Source: Planctomycetaceae bacterium
Lineage (GTDB): Bacteria > Planctomycetota > Phycisphaerae > SM23-33
Length of the DNA stretch: 64,000 nt
Reading direction: 5' to 3'
Assembly: GCA_039680605.1 (NCBI GenBank)
Contig: JBDKTA010000049.1
Location: forward strand, 1-64,000
Every line of letters begins with the position of its first letter. Position 1 is the first letter of the stretch. A program made the position numbers and the translations under genes. This document shows, in pieces, positions 31,236-59,062 of the stretch. The notes under the pieces are model-generated. The model saw only the letters and a list, made by a program, of their open reading frames with translations. It was not told the origin of the DNA and searched no databases.

Positions 31236-31560
31236 ATGCCGAAAAGCTTACCACAGAGGCACAGAGGGCTCTGAGTGAACAACAAAGCAGAAACAGGAAC
31301 AAAGAGAGATAAATAAAAGACCCAGTTCGGGTGGTCGCCATATGTGCGATGAGCACGAAGAAGTTTGAGCCGCTGAGGTCGCTGAGGACGCAGAGGAAGA
31401 AGAAAGCATGGAATGATGGAATGAGGACAAGGGCAATGGTTCCGGCTTCGTTTCCATTATTCCATTATTCCAGTATTCCACCATTCCTCTTCGTTCCCTT
31501 CTCCCTCAGCGACCTCAGCGACCTCAGCGGCTAATGCCGCCGCGGTAAGTTTTCCGGAGA
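31236..31560. repeat. Triple-nested palindrome (families B/C), copy C1
   Basis: Outer pair: CCGAAAAGCTTACC (from about 31238) against GGTAAGTTTTCCGG (to about 31559). Middle pair: GAGCCGCTGAGGTCGCTGAGG (31367 on) against CCTCAGCGACCTCAGCGGC (to 31532). Inner pair: GGAATGATGGAATGA against CCATTATTCCATTATTCC. A family B arm (ACCACAGAGGCACAGAGGG) without partner sits between the outer and middle layers. It makes up most of the 31051-31564 gap. The right end merges into the ribosome site of the LysR gene. Confidence 0.85.
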
Positions 31561-52095: not shown

Positions 52096-52689
52096 TTACA
52101 GTTTGCCCTTGGTGCTGGGCAGTTCGCGGCCGCGCGCGGCGTCGGGCTCTTTGGCCGCTCGCAGGGCGATGGCCAGGGCCTTGAAGATCGCCTCGGCGAT
52201 GTGATGGTCGTTGCTGCCGTAGGGCACGCTGACGTGCAGATTGATGCCCGCCGCTGCGGCCATCCGGCGCAGGAACTCCTCGACGAGCTGGGTGTCGAAC
52301 GTGCCGATCTTGTCGCCGGTGAAGGCGACCTGGAACACCGTGGCCGCACGCCCGGACAGATCCATCGCGACTTCGGCCAGCGACTCGTCCATGGGAACGC
52401 GCGCCCATCCGAAGCGGCGGATTCCCGCCTTGGTGCCCAGCGCCTTGGCCAGCGCCTCGCCCAGGCAGATGGCGACATCCTCGGCCGTGTGGTGATCGTC
52501 AACCTGCAGGTCGCCGTCGGCCTTGACCGTGATGTCCGTGAGACTGTGCTTGCCGAGATGATCGAGCATGTGATCGAGAAACCCGATGCCCGTCCCAGCG
52601 GCCACCTTGCCCGCGCCGTCCAGGTCGAGGCTCAGCTCGATGTTCGTTTCGTTGGTCTTGCGTTTGACTGTAGCTTTGCGATTGGGCAT
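52096..52689 (-). CDS. hisB: Imidazoleglycerol-phosphate dehydratase
   Basis: Mn-dependent dehydration of imidazole-glycerol phosphate in histidine synthesis. 197 residues, the length of monofunctional HisB. Both metal-binding repeats are present: DDHHTAEDVAICLGEAL and NDHHIAEAIFKALAIAL, with FLDHMLDHLGKHSL and DLSGRAATVF between or before. Its start is 24 bp from the family H repeat that separates it from the S23-like gene. It is followed directly by rsmE. Confidence 0.96.
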   Translation of the reverse strand: MPNRKATVKRKTNETNIELSLDLDGAGKVAAGTGIGFLDHMLDHLGKHSLTDITVKADGDLQVDDHHTAEDVAICLGEALAKALGTKAGIRRFGWARVPMDESLAEVAMDLSGRAATVFQVAFTGDKIGTFDTQLVEEFLRRMAAAAGINLHVSVPYGSNDHHIAEAIFKALAIALRAAKEPDAARGRELPSTKGKL

Positions 52690-52690
52690 G

Positions 52691-52725
52691 AACTAGATCC
52701 TCGATCCTAGGTCCTAGATCCTCGG
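52691..52725. repeat. Family H repeat, copy 1 (left bracket of the S23 gene)
   Basis: ACTAGATCCTCGATCCTAGG then TCCTAGATCCTCGG, made of TCCTAG/GATCCT units. It overlaps the 3' end of the S23 gene, whose last residues R-I and TAG stop are read from it. It is complementary to the copy at 53208-53240. Confidence 0.9.
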
Positions 52726-53130
52726 GTTCGCTCTGACGGCCGGCTGATATTTTATGGTTCGATTGCCGCTGGCAGTCAGGCTCTTGATCAGAGCTCGCAG
52801 CAGCCGCTGCACATCTTTGCACAAGCCCAGCAGGCGAGCTATTGCCTTGTCTGTTGTATATCTTAGCCGAAGGGAAAGCAAAGCTTGAGTCTCAACCTCG
52901 TTGCAGGACCCTGCGGCCATAGCGAGAAAACGCACGTAATCATCGCGAGTCATTCTGCCGTTGCCTTCGGCGATGTTGCTGGGAATGCTCACTGCGGCCC
53001 GCCGCAGTTGATTTCGCAGCCCAAACATCTCTTCCTTAGGAAACTGCATACTGACTCTATAAGCTTCTTCGACAAGTTCCATCGCCTTTTGCCAGACAAT
53101 CAGGTCCTTGTAATCTCTAATCTTGTCCAT
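52714..53130 (-). CDS. Four-helix bundle protein of the S23/IVP family
   Basis: 138 residues. The start is the ATG at 53130 (MDKIRDYKDLIVWQKAMELV), the typical family opening, followed by LRNQLRRAAVSIPSNIAEG and FLAMAAGSCNEVETQALLSL, all signatures of the 23S rRNA intervening-sequence protein family. These small proteins are encoded within intervening sequences of 23S rRNA in some bacteria and at diverse sites in others; molecular function is not established. Here it interrupts the his operon between hisC and hisB and is bracketed by inverted family H repeats. It is slightly less GC-rich than its neighbours. The first 21 residues of the longest frame were rejected. Confidence 0.9.
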   Translation of the reverse strand: MDKIRDYKDLIVWQKAMELVEEAYRVSMQFPKEEMFGLRNQLRRAAVSIPSNIAEGNGRMTRDDYVRFLAMAAGSCNEVETQALLSLRLRYTTDKAIARLLGLCKDVQRLLRALIKSLTASGNRTIKYQPAVRANPRI

Positions 53131-53207
53131 AATCGTTCGTTTCTCTGTGAAAATGAATACCCGCGTAACAGGAGTAATGCGCCGAGAGCACAATCTTGTA
53201 TCCCTGC

Positions 53208-53240
53208 CCCTGGGATCTAGGATCTAGGATCTAGGATCTT
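53208..53240. repeat. Family H repeat, copy 2 (right bracket of the S23 gene)
   Basis: CCCTGGGATCTAGGATCTAG continuing as GATCTAGGATCTT. It is complementary to 52691-52725 across the S23 gene. It overlaps the 3' end of hisC and encodes its last residues D-P-R-S and TAG. Confidence 0.9.
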
Positions 53241-54275
53241 CTTTATTGCCCCAATCAGTTCCGCGTTCTGCTCTTCCGTTCCGATACTGATACGCAGCTT
53301 GTCATCCAGGCGAGGCTGGTTGAAATACCTGACCAGAATCCCGGCGGCCTTAAGAGCCTGGTAGATCTCCGAGGCGTTGCCTCGTGGCGGGCGGGCCAGG
53401 ACGAAATTGGACTGGCTGGGCCAGACTTTAAAGCCCATGGCGGCCAGATCGGCTGAGAGTTTGGCGCGAGAGGCTTTGACTTTCTCTGCGTTGGCGTTCT
53501 TCCAGGGCTGGTCCTTCATGGCCGCGGCGGCTGCGGCGCAGGCGATGGCATCTACGTTGTAGCTGTCTTTGACTTTGTTGAGGCCGTCGAGCAGCGTCGG
53601 TTGGGCGAAGGCGAAGCCCATACGCAGGCCAGCCAGCGAATAGCCTTTGCTCAGCGTTCGCAGAACGACCACGTTGGGGAACTTGGCCACCAGCGACAGG
53701 GCGTTGCCTTCGGCGAAGTCGGCGTAGGCTTCATCGATCACCAGCACGCCGGCCACCGCCGCGGCGAGCTTCTCCATCTGCTCCAGCGGCACCAGCGTGC
53801 CCGAGGGGCTGTTGGGGTTGGCGACGATCGTGACAGCCGCCCGCACGCCGCGCAGGGCGTCGAAGGGCAGGGCGTAATCTTCCGGGTAGGGCACCTCGAC
53901 GAACGGGGCGTTCTGGATCTTGGCCAGCGTCTGATAGAGCACATACGTCGGCGTGGGGTAGGTGACGATGCGTCCCTCGCCCAGGCACGCGCGGAACACG
54001 ATGGTCAACAGATCATCGCTGCCGTTGCCCGCCAGCACGCAGTCGGCCGGCACGCCCAGCGCTTCCGCGGCCGCCCTGCAGGCCGCGCGGGCCATCGGGT
54101 CGGGATACCGCCGCAGCAGCTCCGGATCGAATGCATGCACCGCCCGCACCACCGCCGGCGACGGCGGGTACGGGTTCTCATTCGTATTGAGCTTGATGAC
54201 CTTGACACCGGCAGCGGGCTGCTCGCCAGGCTCATAGCCGGTCATTGCGTCGATGTTGTTGCGGAAGAAGGTCAT
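53217..54275 (-). CDS. hisC: Histidinol-phosphate aminotransferase
   Basis: PLP-dependent transamination of imidazole-acetol phosphate in histidine synthesis. 352 residues, fold type I. Visible are KLNTNENPYPPSPAVV, AGNGSDDLL, NPNSPSGTL, VIDEAYADFAEGNAL and the PLP-lysine segment RTLSKGYSLAGLRMGFA. The C-terminus ends with the family's usual IKKIL and is then extended by D-P-R-S encoded in the family H repeat, which supplies the stop codon. The frame is otherwise complete. Its neighbours are hisD upstream and the S23 gene downstream. Confidence 0.96.
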   Translation of the reverse strand: MTFFRNNIDAMTGYEPGEQPAAGVKVIKLNTNENPYPPSPAVVRAVHAFDPELLRRYPDPMARAACRAAAEALGVPADCVLAGNGSDDLLTIVFRACLGEGRIVTYPTPTYVLYQTLAKIQNAPFVEVPYPEDYALPFDALRGVRAAVTIVANPNSPSGTLVPLEQMEKLAAAVAGVLVIDEAYADFAEGNALSLVAKFPNVVVLRTLSKGYSLAGLRMGFAFAQPTLLDGLNKVKDSYNVDAIACAAAAAAMKDQPWKNANAEKVKASRAKLSADLAAMGFKVWPSQSNFVLARPPRGNASEIYQALKAAGILVRYFNQPRLDDKLRISIGTEEQNAELIGAIKKILDPRS

Positions 54276-54280
54276 AAAAC

Positions 54281-54367
54281 AGATCCTAGATCCTAGGTCC
54301 TAGGTCCTCGATCCTCGGGGTCCGACGGTCATGCTTCCTAGGATCGAGGATCTAGGACCTAGGATCT
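54281..54367. repeat. Family H palindrome, copy 3 (empty form)
   Basis: A full palindrome of TCCTAGG/GATCCT units: left arm from AGATCCTAGATCCTAGG, right arm CCTAGGATCGAGGATCTAGG then ACCTAGGATCT, with a loop of about 20 nt. It separates hisC from hisD and encodes the last residues D-P-R-S and TAG of hisD. It is equivalent to the pair that brackets the S23 gene, but without cargo. Confidence 0.95.
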
Positions 54368-55749
54368 TTTCGCCTGCGAACGGCCGCCGCATGGGCAGTT
54401 AAGCCTTCACTCGTCGCGATATCTATGATATCGCCGGCATCGGCACTGAGCGACGCTTCGTCGTATCGCACCATACTGGAGGCTTTCAAAAAGTCGTTCA
54501 CGCTTAGCGGTCCGGCGAATCGGGCCGTGCCGGCCGTCGGCAGGACGTGTGACGGACCGGCGTAGTAGTCGCCCACCGGCACCGGCGTGTATGCGCCCAG
54601 GAAAATCGCCCCCGCGTGGCGGATGCGCTTCAAGGCTGCATCGTCGTCGGCTGTGACTATCTGCAGGTGCTCGGGAGCGAAGGCGTTGGCCACGTCGCAC
54701 GCTGAGGCGATGGTCTCGACGACGACGGCCGCACAGTACTCGTCCAGATACGCCCCGATTGCCTGTGAACGTTTCAGCGTGGGCAATTGCCGCTCGATCT
54801 CGTCAGCGACCTGTCCTGCCAGGGTGGCGCTGGTGGTGACCAGGACGGCTGAGCCCGGATCGTGCTCGACTTGTGCGAGCATGTCGGCGGCTACGAAGTC
54901 GGCGCGGGCTGTCTCGTCGGCGACGATCAGCACTTCGCTGGGCCCGGCGATGGAGTCGATGCCGACTTGCCCGAAGAGCTGCCGCTTGGCCTCGGCGATG
55001 TAAGCGTTGCCTGGTCCGACGATCTTGTCGACGGGCCGGATAGTCGGCGTGCCCCAGGCTGCCGCGGCGAGGCCCGCCACGCCGGCGGCGCGGTAGACCT
55101 CCGCCACGCCCAGTTCGCCAGCCAGCGCCAGCACCATCGGGTGGATGTCGCACGTGCAATCAGGTGGCACAGCCTTTCCAGGCTGTGCATGCACAGGCTG
55201 GAAAGCCTGTGCCACAGGGGCCGTGGGGGGCGAGACCATGACGATCTGGCGCACGCCGGCGACTTGCGCCGGCACGACGGTCATCAGAACGGTTGAGGGA
55301 TAGATCGCCTTGCCGCCGGGAACGTACACGCAGACGCGGTCCAGCGGCAGGTATCGCACTGACATCCACCGTCCGCCGCGCCGCAGCGACGGTTCATCCG
55401 CGATTCGGATGGCCTGCTGATAGTCGCGGATATTGTCAGCCGCACGGCGCACGATCTCCATGAATCGTTGCTCATGGGCGCAGTAGTGGTCATGGGCGGC
55501 CTTGATGCATTCTGCGCTGACGCGCAGGTCGGCGGCCTGGAGATTGCCGCCGTGGATCTCGCGCGTGTGGGTGGCGACATATTCATCGCCCTCGCGCCGG
55601 ACGCGGTCGATGATGGTCCGCACCTGGTCGGACATGTTCGAAGCGTTTGCGGCGCCGGCGACGAGTCCGCCCTCATGCAGGCGGCGGCGCAGTTCCGCCA
55701 CGGCAGAGTCGTTGAGCGGATCCGATGCTGTAATGATTCGCAGGCCCAT
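54352..55749 (-). CDS. hisD: Histidinol dehydrogenase with in-frame palindrome
   Basis: NAD- and Zn-dependent oxidation of histidinol to histidine. 465 residues, slightly longer than usual. Visible are MGLRIITASD, PGGKAIYPSTVLMTVVPAQV, VDKIVGPGNAYIAEAKRQLF, GIDSIAGPSEVL, QVEHDPGSAVLVT and FAPEHLQI. Between SPPT and CDIHPM lies a 52-bp palindrome of family E, translated in frame as AQAFQPVHAQPGKAVPPD, at a place where HisD orthologues have a short loop. The usual GGAQAIAAL reads AAGVAGLAAAA. The tail D-P-R-S comes from family H. The ATG at 55749 is preferred over the GTG at 55758. All catalytic segments are present, so activity is likely. Confidence 0.94.
   Translation of the reverse strand: MGLRIITASDPLNDSAVAELRRRLHEGGLVAGAANASNMSDQVRTIIDRVRREGDEYVATHTREIHGGNLQAADLRVSAECIKAAHDHYCAHEQRFMEIVRRAADNIRDYQQAIRIADEPSLRRGGRWMSVRYLPLDRVCVYVPGGKAIYPSTVLMTVVPAQVAGVRQIVMVSPPTAPVAQAFQPVHAQPGKAVPPDCTCDIHPMVLALAGELGVAEVYRAAGVAGLAAAAWGTPTIRPVDKIVGPGNAYIAEAKRQLFGQVGIDSIAGPSEVLIVADETARADFVAADMLAQVEHDPGSAVLVTTSATLAGQVADEIERQLPTLKRSQAIGAYLDEYCAAVVVETIASACDVANAFAPEHLQIVTADDDAALKRIRHAGAIFLGAYTPVPVGDYYAGPSHVLPTAGTARFAGPLSVNDFLKASSMVRYDEASLSADAGDIIDIATSEGLTAHAAAVRRRKDPRS
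55164..55215. repeat. Palindromic repeat family E, copy 2 (inside hisD)
   Basis: Two 24-bp arms (starting GTGGCACAGCC and ending GGCTGTGCCAC-type complement) joined by CATG; 22 of 24 positions pair. Each arm also forms its own 7-bp hairpin. It is in frame within hisD. The intergenic copy is at 43666-43744. Confidence 0.95.
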
Positions 55750-55833
55750 AATGGGCACACTTTAAGCTTGGCGGCAGGGATTTGCAATGAATCGCGCCAG
55801 GACGCTTGTGTGGCGCGAAGGCGAGAGGGTGCT

Positions 55834-57044: not shown

Positions 57045-57252
57045 AGCCGCTGAGGTCGCAGAGGACGCGGAGGAAGAAGGAAGGATGGAAGAACGGAATG
57101 ATGGAAGAAGGGATGGGTGGATGGATGGATGAATGGATGGATGGAATGTTGGGACCGGGATCTGGGCTTGGGGCTGGGTTGCGGTCATCACTGCAATCTT
57201 CCATTATCTCGTTTCCTCAGCGTCCTCAGCGTCCTCAGCGACCTCAGCGGCT
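57045..57252. repeat. Nested palindrome family C, copy 2
   Basis: Outer pair AGCCGCTGAGGTCGCAGAGG and CCTCAGCGACCTCAGCGGCT (to 57252). The inner part has tandem TGGA and ATGGATGG units (57117-57150), GGAATGTTGGGACC and a CAATCTTCCATTAT arm. The inner portion is closely related to that in copy 3 (58891-59062). It makes up most of the 56991-57314 gap. Confidence 0.9.
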
Positions 57253-57314: not shown

Positions 57315-58892
57315 ATGGGCCGACCGAACATTGTTTTGATCCTCAACGACGACATGGGTTATTCCGACATCGGCTGCTACGGCGGCGAGGTGCGGACGCC
57401 CAATCTCGACCGCCTGGCCGAGCGGGGGCTGCGCCTGACGCAGTTTTACAATACCGCCCGCTGCAGCCCCTCGCGGGCGAGCCTGCTGACGGGGCTGCAC
57501 CCGCACCAGACGGGCATCGGGGTCCTCGTCGAAAACCTCCTGCCCGAGGGCTACGCCGGCAACCTCAACCGCCGCTGCGCGACGATCGCCGAAGTGCTGC
57601 GGCCGGCAGGCTACAACACCTACATGAGCGGCAAGTGGCACATCGCCGGCGACTGGTTCAACGACAAGTCTAACTGGCCCTGCCAACGCGGCTTCGACCG
57701 CTTCTACGGCACGCTGGCCGGGGCGGGCAGCTACTACAACCCCAACACGCTGACGCGCCAGAACGACAATATCGAACACGAGGCCCAGGCGGCAGACTTC
57801 TACTACACCGACGCCATCAGCGACAACGCCGCGGCGTTTGTAGCCGATCATGCCCGCGCCGGCGGCGAGGCTCCGTTCTTCATGTACGTGGCCTACACCG
57901 CCCCGCATTGGCCGCTGCACGCTCCGGCGGAGGATGTGCAGGGCTACGCCGGGCGCTTCGACGAGGGCTGGGACGCTTTGCGCCAGCGGCGGCGGCAGCG
58001 CATGATCGAGATGGGTCTCATCGACCCCTCGTGGGAGTTGACCGAGCGCGACCCTGCCGTGCCGCCCTGGGACGCCGCCCCGGACAAGGCTTGGGAAACG
58101 CGGCGCATGGAGGTCTACGCCGCCCAGATCGACCGGATGGACCAAGGCATCGGGCGCGTTCTCAAGAGCCTGGAAGAGACCGGCCAGCTCGACAACACGC
58201 TGATCATCTTCCTGGCCGACAACGGCGCCTGTGCCGAACTGATCCAGGGCGATTACGACTGGGCGACGCCCGGACACATCGGCCGGGCCAAGACCCGCGA
58301 CGCCCGTCCGGTCAAGTGGGGCAACATGACCGACGTGATGCCCGGGCCGGAAGACACCTACGCCAGCTACGGCGTCGGATGGGCGAACCTCTCCGACACG
58401 CCGTTCCGCAAGTACAAGCACTGGGCGCACGAGGGCGGCATCGCCACGCCCTTTATCGTGCATTGGCCAGCCGGGCTCGACGGCGCGGGCGCTGTTCGCC
58501 ACAGCCCCGCGCAACTGCCCGACGTGATGGCCACAGTGCTGGACGTGAGCGGCGCGGAATATCCCGCCCGCCTGGGCGAGCACGAGATCCTGCCCTGCGA
58601 AGGCGTCAGCCTTATGAGGATCCTGAAGACGGACGCGCCGCGCGGAAAACCGATCTTCGTCGAGCACGAAGGCAACGGCGCCATGCGCGACGGCCGCTGG
58701 AAACTCGTCCGCACCTGGCCCGACGCGTGGGAACTCTACGACATGCAAACCGACCGCACCGAGATGCACAATCTGGCGGCCGAGCAGGGCGACCGCGTGC
58801 GCGAAATGGCGGCGGCCTGGCAAGCCTGGGCCGACCGCTGCGGCGTGATCGACCGGGAGAAAATTCTGGAAATCTTCAAGAAGAAGCATTAA
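57315..58892 (+). CDS. Sulfatase (arylsulfatase type S1), no signal peptide
   Basis: 525 residues, formylglycine-dependent sulfatase that cleaves sulfate esters. Opening RPNIVLILNDDMGYSDIGCY with paired metal-binding Asp; formylglycine motif CSPSRASLLTG near residue 50; YMSGKWHIAGDW, and DNGACAE further on. The start after AAAGGA gives a protein that begins directly at the catalytic domain. Most planctomycete sulfatases are exported, so a cytoplasmic location would be unusual unless an upstream start is missed; none is apparent. It needs a formylglycine-generating enzyme or anSME, not in this window. The stop codon lies within the first bases of the family C repeat. Confidence 0.92.
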   Translation: MGRPNIVLILNDDMGYSDIGCYGGEVRTPNLDRLAERGLRLTQFYNTARCSPSRASLLTGLHPHQTGIGVLVENLLPEGYAGNLNRRCATIAEVLRPAGYNTYMSGKWHIAGDWFNDKSNWPCQRGFDRFYGTLAGAGSYYNPNTLTRQNDNIEHEAQAADFYYTDAISDNAAAFVADHARAGGEAPFFMYVAYTAPHWPLHAPAEDVQGYAGRFDEGWDALRQRRRQRMIEMGLIDPSWELTERDPAVPPWDAAPDKAWETRRMEVYAAQIDRMDQGIGRVLKSLEETGQLDNTLIIFLADNGACAELIQGDYDWATPGHIGRAKTRDARPVKWGNMTDVMPGPEDTYASYGVGWANLSDTPFRKYKHWAHEGGIATPFIVHWPAGLDGAGAVRHSPAQLPDVMATVLDVSGAEYPARLGEHEILPCEGVSLMRILKTDAPRGKPIFVEHEGNGAMRDGRWKLVRTWPDAWELYDMQTDRTEMHNLAAEQGDRVREMAAAWQAWADRCGVIDREKILEIFKKKH

Positions 58893-59062
58893 CCGCAGAG
58901 AACGCAGAGGGCGCAGAGGAAGAGGAGGGAATGGATGAATGGATGAATGGATGGATGGAATATTGGGACCTAGTGTTTGGGCTGCGGTCATCATTCCAAT
59001 CTTCCAACATTCCATCATTCCTCCTCTCCTTCCCTCTGCGCTCTCCGCGATCTCTGCGGTAA
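58891..59062. repeat. Nested palindrome family C, copy 3
   Basis: Outer pair AACCGCAGAGAACGCAGAGG and CTCTGCGCTCTCCGCGATCT (ending TGCGGT, 59062). Inner GGAATGGATGAATGGATG and CCAACATTCCATCATTCC. The right end joins directly to the AAAGGAA ribosome site of the phosphofructokinase gene. Confidence 0.9.

Follow-up and report, generated by a model that had tools for sequence, protein, structure and literature searches.

We analysed a 64,000-nucleotide stretch of DNA from a Planctomycetaceae bacterium (contig JBDKTA010000049.1, positions 1 to 64,000 of the forward strand; hereafter the window), in which a gene of the S23/IVP family lies within the histidine operon, between hisB and hisC, and is enclosed by two inverted arrays of heptamers (the arms). 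The S23 gene and its two arms probably make up a single small mobile element about 550 bp long, a reading to which we assign a probability of roughly 0.7; on the best reading, S23 mobile elements are widespread and the intervening sequences (IVSs) of 23S rRNA are one case of them. In plasmid relatives of the window element, the S23 gene and its arms move together as a unit. The window element consists of the following parts.

52714..53130, minus strand: S23/IVP gene, 138 amino acids plus stop (PF05635, 1.4e-37; TIGR02436, 121.6 bits)
52688..52726, no strand assigned: arm 3' of the S23 gene, heptamers CTAGGAT/CGAGGAT on the gene strand (inverted repeat I1)
53208..53246, no strand assigned: arm 5' of the S23 gene, heptamers AGATCCT on the gene strand (inverted repeat I1)

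The open reading frame (ORF) starts at the ATG at 53130, and its protein far exceeds the TIGR02436 cut-off. The arms are 82% complementary over 39 nt and reach a local alignment score of 21, whereas none of 2000 dinucleotide shuffles of the flanks scored above 17. The score of the arms drops to 15 once the downstream flank is trimmed at the stop codon, because the downstream arm overlaps the 3' end of the S23 gene. The fold of the whole element has a z value of -5.07. The original prediction, made from the window alone, had described an S23 gene bracketed by inverted arms between hisB and hisC, and the two profile matches and the inverted repeat bear this out.

Movement as a unit was seen at five sites in Nostocales plasmids, each of which is occupied by an S23 gene with arms in one plasmid but free of repeats in a related one. 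Because the S23-less versions of these sites are without repeats, gene and arms arrived together. At site T, arms and S23 gene were present in Trichormus and Scytonema, whereas four plasmids with flanks about 98% identical had repeat-free, continuous sequence (AAAAAGTAATTAACAAAT); the insert is flanked by a (G)TAAT duplication of 4-5 bp. The same site held a truncated remnant in Nostoc C052 and a gene-less heptamer palindrome in Brasilonema. Site N, after a traM-like gene, occurred in loaded, repeat-free and gene-less palindrome forms, and sites A, B and C in loaded and repeat-free forms. Elements of the site-T type were also found at two further, unrelated sites, where homology stops at the arms. 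S23 copies at different sites showed a ratio of nonsynonymous to synonymous substitution rates (dN/dS) of 0.10-0.15, indicating purifying selection. Two Calothrix plasmid copies, H1 and H2, were rejected as independent insertions, since they share neighbouring genes. As side observations around site C, the S23 element in Nostoc N6 plasmid pNPM1 (L313, 1470-1800) has been split by another insertion, which carries a palindromic repeat, and Nostoc ATCC 53789 pNsp_c (L316, 820-1370) has, one gene beyond the empty site, a distinct S23 gene whose arms are of the AGGGGAAA type.

The genome to which the window belongs holds 13 S23 genes (PF05635 search). For each gene, bracketing was scored by local alignment of the upstream flank to the reverse-complemented downstream flank, with mismatched flank pairs as the control. 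Eight of the 13 were clearly bracketed (scores 21-34), nearly each with a unit of its own, and mismatched pairs in the genome scored 13 or less except for the related genes L005 and L006, which have a common unit. The original prediction had assigned the repeats in the his operon to one palindrome family, family H, and expected it around other S23 genes. This expectation failed: family H repeats were absent near all other 12 S23 genes of the genome, whose flanks carry inverted short-period repeats mostly of units other than H. Family H was therefore rejected as a general signature of S23 genes (0/12 nearby); it is the arm sequence of one S23 lineage.

Bracketing extended across phyla. A scan of GTDB species genomes, seeded with a close S23 alignment, gave 80 S23 loci (78 usable) from Planctomycetota, Acidobacteria, Verrucomicrobia, Clostridia, Proteobacteria, Bacteroidetes, Chloroflexi, candidate phyla and others. 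A score of at least 16 was reached by 44 of the 78, compared with 0.8% of mismatched flank pairs. Within the window's own family, 21 of 29 S23 loci passed the threshold; this set overlaps slightly with that of the scan, a few named records being the same genomes. Under the same gene calling (simple longest-ORF calls), 33 of 74 S23 genes were bracketed, against 1 of 294 other genes on the same contigs. The S23 gene had the orientation of its upstream gene in 52 of 58 cases. No S23 relatives were found in the phage collection.

The arms have a common architecture. The best period was 7 in 51 of 62 S23 arms, and the unit read toward the gene was AGNNNNN, with A in 49/53 and G in 52/53; the heptamer phase was picked to favour AG, which a random heptamer would contain in only about one third of cases. 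Stop codons were enriched in both arms relative to unit-shuffled arms, at 0.059 versus 0.029 (standard deviation 0.005) downstream and 0.073 versus 0.056 (standard deviation 0.006) upstream. The arm sequence follows the S23 lineage: arms were common to all five S23 pairs that are more than 85% identical, to 6 of 10 pairs at 70-85% and to 0.9% at 40-50%. Among the closest pairs, some are one locus or occupy one site, and others come from separate sites or from separate phyla.

The host operon of the window element also contains a gene-less palindrome, and its parts are arranged as follows.

52096..52689, minus strand: hisB, host operon gene downstream of the element (PF00475, 5.8e-64)
53217..54275, minus strand: hisC, host operon gene upstream of the element, ending DPRS* in the arm (PF00155, 2.2e-61)
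54281..54367, no strand assigned: closed gene-less palindrome of an AGATCCT-type heptamer in the hisD-hisC gap (inverted repeats I3, I5 and I10; fold z -7.15)
54352..55758, minus strand: hisD, ending DPRS* in the closed palindrome (PF00815, 2.6e-135)

The arms of the closed palindrome (54288-54318 and 54337-54367) are 94% complementary over 31 nt and fold at -54 kcal/mol. They consist of the same heptamer as the S23 arms, as had been predicted. Two details are corrected here. The downstream arm of the element extends up to the hisB start, with the S23 stop codon inside it. The upstream arm contains the hisC stop codon and the closed palindrome that of hisD, and both proteins end in ...DPRS*, encoded by heptamers (GATCCTAGATCCTAG), residues that are missing from the proteins of relatives. 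A separate in-frame palindrome with 26-nt arms (GTGGCACAGCC...) was noticed within hisD at 55164-55215, where it accounts for about 21 extra residues absent from five relatives. Relatives mostly have a short hisC-hisB gap in their his operons, but in two of them the hisD-hisC and hisC-hisB gaps both hold S23 genes, every one flanked by heptamer arms of its own, and further relatives have gene-less palindromes in the his gaps. The earlier idea that the two structures in the window are loaded and empty forms is supported for the kind of element, given these two relatives and the Nostocales sites, and is not supported for family H itself as the S23 element (0/12 other S23 genes near H). The closed palindrome in the window is likely derived from an S23 element.

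A link to 23S rRNA IVSs, also proposed in the original prediction, was supported. The IVS of Coxiella is 428-444 nt in size and contains an S23p ORF preceded by tandem heptamers GACAGAT in variable number; its terminal stem of 28 bp is cleaved by RNase III (PMC4990558). Like the IVSs with an S23p ORF of Coxiella burnetii and Leptospira, the window element has an S23-family ORF within a stem-forming terminal inverted repeat and is of similar size. Unlike them, it lies outside any 23S rRNA gene, between hisC and hisB, and the S23 elements described here occur many per genome, with many units, with gene-less palindromes and with insertions relative to repeat-free sites. These parallels also bear on an alternative in which the element is a passive intervening sequence at the RNA level: RNase III would trim the stem from the transcript, mobility would be provided in trans by an enzyme of the host or of another element, and S23 would have some other role. 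The Coxiella IVS, with its S23p ORF, terminal stem, heptamers, excision by RNase III and probably unexpressed protein (PMC4990558), fits this explanation, as do the strong sense orientation of S23 genes and their lack of a recognised catalytic domain. However, S23 copies at different sites are under purifying selection and arm sequence tracks the S23 lineage, both of which point to a protein that acts on its own arms or in their service, and we regard this alternative as unlikely.

The arm units are also dispersed in the genome. In a census of about 1.25 Mb of it, window included, the arm units of the eight bracketed genes had 4-29 sites each (own site counted), and of 44 foreign arms, taken from other genomes, 40 had no site at all. 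Two places (G000:C22:134958-135337 and C45:37983-38405) have heptamer arms about 340-380 bp apart around DNA without a recognisable gene.

A second gene family showed a parallel arrangement. The census of the same genome revealed a GxxExxY gene (TIGR04256) within inverted 9-mer arms (G000:C22:261357-261885, L266), and family-wide 24 of 29 GxxExxY loci (PF13366/TIGR04256; L263-L292) were bracketed by inverted 8-9-mer arrays, with a best period of 9 in 16 of the 24. Mismatched GxxExxY flank pairs passed in 6.8% of cases, because GxxExxY arms resemble one another. Plasmid GxxExxY matches were few and diverse. Gene-less 9-mer palindromes with a near-identical loop (gaagaagtwgttttgt...) were observed in the L229, L236 and L261 regions (G000:C48:15975, 18366 and 54165; C65:8012), and this common loop sequence suggests that they are copied as units. 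In the window, 9-mer palindromes at 57045-57252, 58892-59060 and 31368-31532 carry within their loops a further array built from a different unit (GGATGGATG, GGAATGATGG); the first two of these flank a sulfatase gene, and similar nests occur elsewhere in the genome. Such nested arrays suggest that palindromes insert into the loops of other palindromes.

These observations are relevant to a second alternative, in which S23 is cargo that enters the loops of pre-existing genomic palindromes and the arms belong to the host genome. Gene-less palindromes with S23-arm units are indeed common in this genome, and palindromes do nest within one another. This explanation is nevertheless very improbable, because at five plasmid sites the S23-less versions have no repeats, so that gene and arms came together, and because the arms track the S23 lineage across genomes. 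A third alternative, in which the arms would be regulatory hairpins of an ordinary kind or products of slippage next to vertically inherited S23 genes, is extremely improbable: heptamer simple repeats are common in bacterial intergenic DNA (PMC4692102), but bracketing of control genes was limited to the single case among 294, the paired inverted units have locus-specific sequence, and the elements show presence and absence at plasmid sites and copies at unrelated ones.

For a mobile S23 element, the most probable course of events is as follows. The element would enter gaps in operons as a unit, mostly in sense, and would be expressed from the host transcript. Its arms can form a long stem by pairing in RNA and perhaps also in single-stranded DNA. 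Given a 7-nt unit that frequently includes a stop codon, they also terminate upstream reading frames and the S23 gene itself. The heptamer stem of each lineage is most likely recognised by that lineage's S23 protein, an Avd-like four-helix bundle that would be needed for spread, and RNase III may process the transcript as it does in rRNA IVSs. Closed gene-less palindromes would then be non-autonomous or decayed forms, presumably mobilised in trans.

Several points weigh against a mobile element. No transposition event was observed. In searches with Pfam/TIGRFAM-type profiles, S23 had no match to transposase, nuclease or reverse transcriptase families, and the S23 protein of Coxiella is probably not made (PMC4990558). 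About 40% of the S23 loci outside the family fall below the threshold, some with visibly short heptamers and some with none. A clear target duplication (4-5 bp) was present at only one of the five plasmid sites (T). The window's own genus has no second genome; loaded and empty sites were compared in the plasmid relatives. Furthermore, the loops of H palindromes are not conserved, which lends no support to movement of H palindromes as units.

Among known systems, REPIN/RAYT (TnpA-REP) is the closest working analogy. In it, a gene is flanked by inverted repeats and accompanied by dispersed gene-less palindromes, and the repeat is specific to each lineage; likewise, gene-less palindromes of S23-arm units are dispersed in the same genome. 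Unlike RAYT, S23 is no Y1/HUH transposase (only PF05635 and a sub-threshold bAvd match were obtained), and its arms are tandem heptamers rather than repetitive extragenic palindromic sequences with a tagged end. The element resembles an insertion sequence or miniature inverted-repeat transposable element in moving as a unit into sites without it, as seen for the plasmid relatives at five sites, but unlike an insertion sequence it encodes no known transposase. PF05635 has been noted as Avd-like (PMC10053308), and S23 belongs to the same four-helix-bundle superfamily as Avd of diversity-generating retroelements. The window S23 protein differs from that Avd in scoring 21.1 bits on NF033474 (cut-off 80), and neither a reverse transcriptase nor a template repeat was seen among the his genes around it. 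In Xanthomonas, Rehm et al. described arrays of the heptamer GGGAATC, reported 70 and 75 convergent pairs from two genomes, and found heptamer arrays generally not associated with mobile elements (PMC4692102). The arms resemble these and the short tandemly repeated repetitive sequences of cyanobacteria (PMC4692102) as tandem 7-nt units that are intergenic and often in convergent inverted pairs; unlike the described repeats, which have no associated gene, they are tied to S23 genes. In the open-licence literature, a general link between heptamer arrays and S23 genes was not found beyond the Coxiella IVS, and prior work may exist.

A wider proposal goes further, and we hold it tentatively, with the odds somewhat against it. 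S23 proteins would define a pan-bacterial class of mobile elements without a known transposase, in which each lineage would recognise an inward-reading heptamer hairpin specific to it and would disperse both itself and gene-less palindromes among operons. Heptamer repeats and rRNA IVSs would be footprints of this class, and GxxExxY genes a parallel class with 9-mer arms. If true, this would join three puzzles that are handled separately in the literature searched: the S23 protein of rRNA IVSs, the abundant heptamer tandem repeats of bacteria and the many annotations 'four helix bundle protein' and 'GxxExxY protein'. The old question of whether IVSs are mobile could be put to a direct test, since plasmids of cyanobacterial culture-collection strains offer defined sites in loaded and in empty form.
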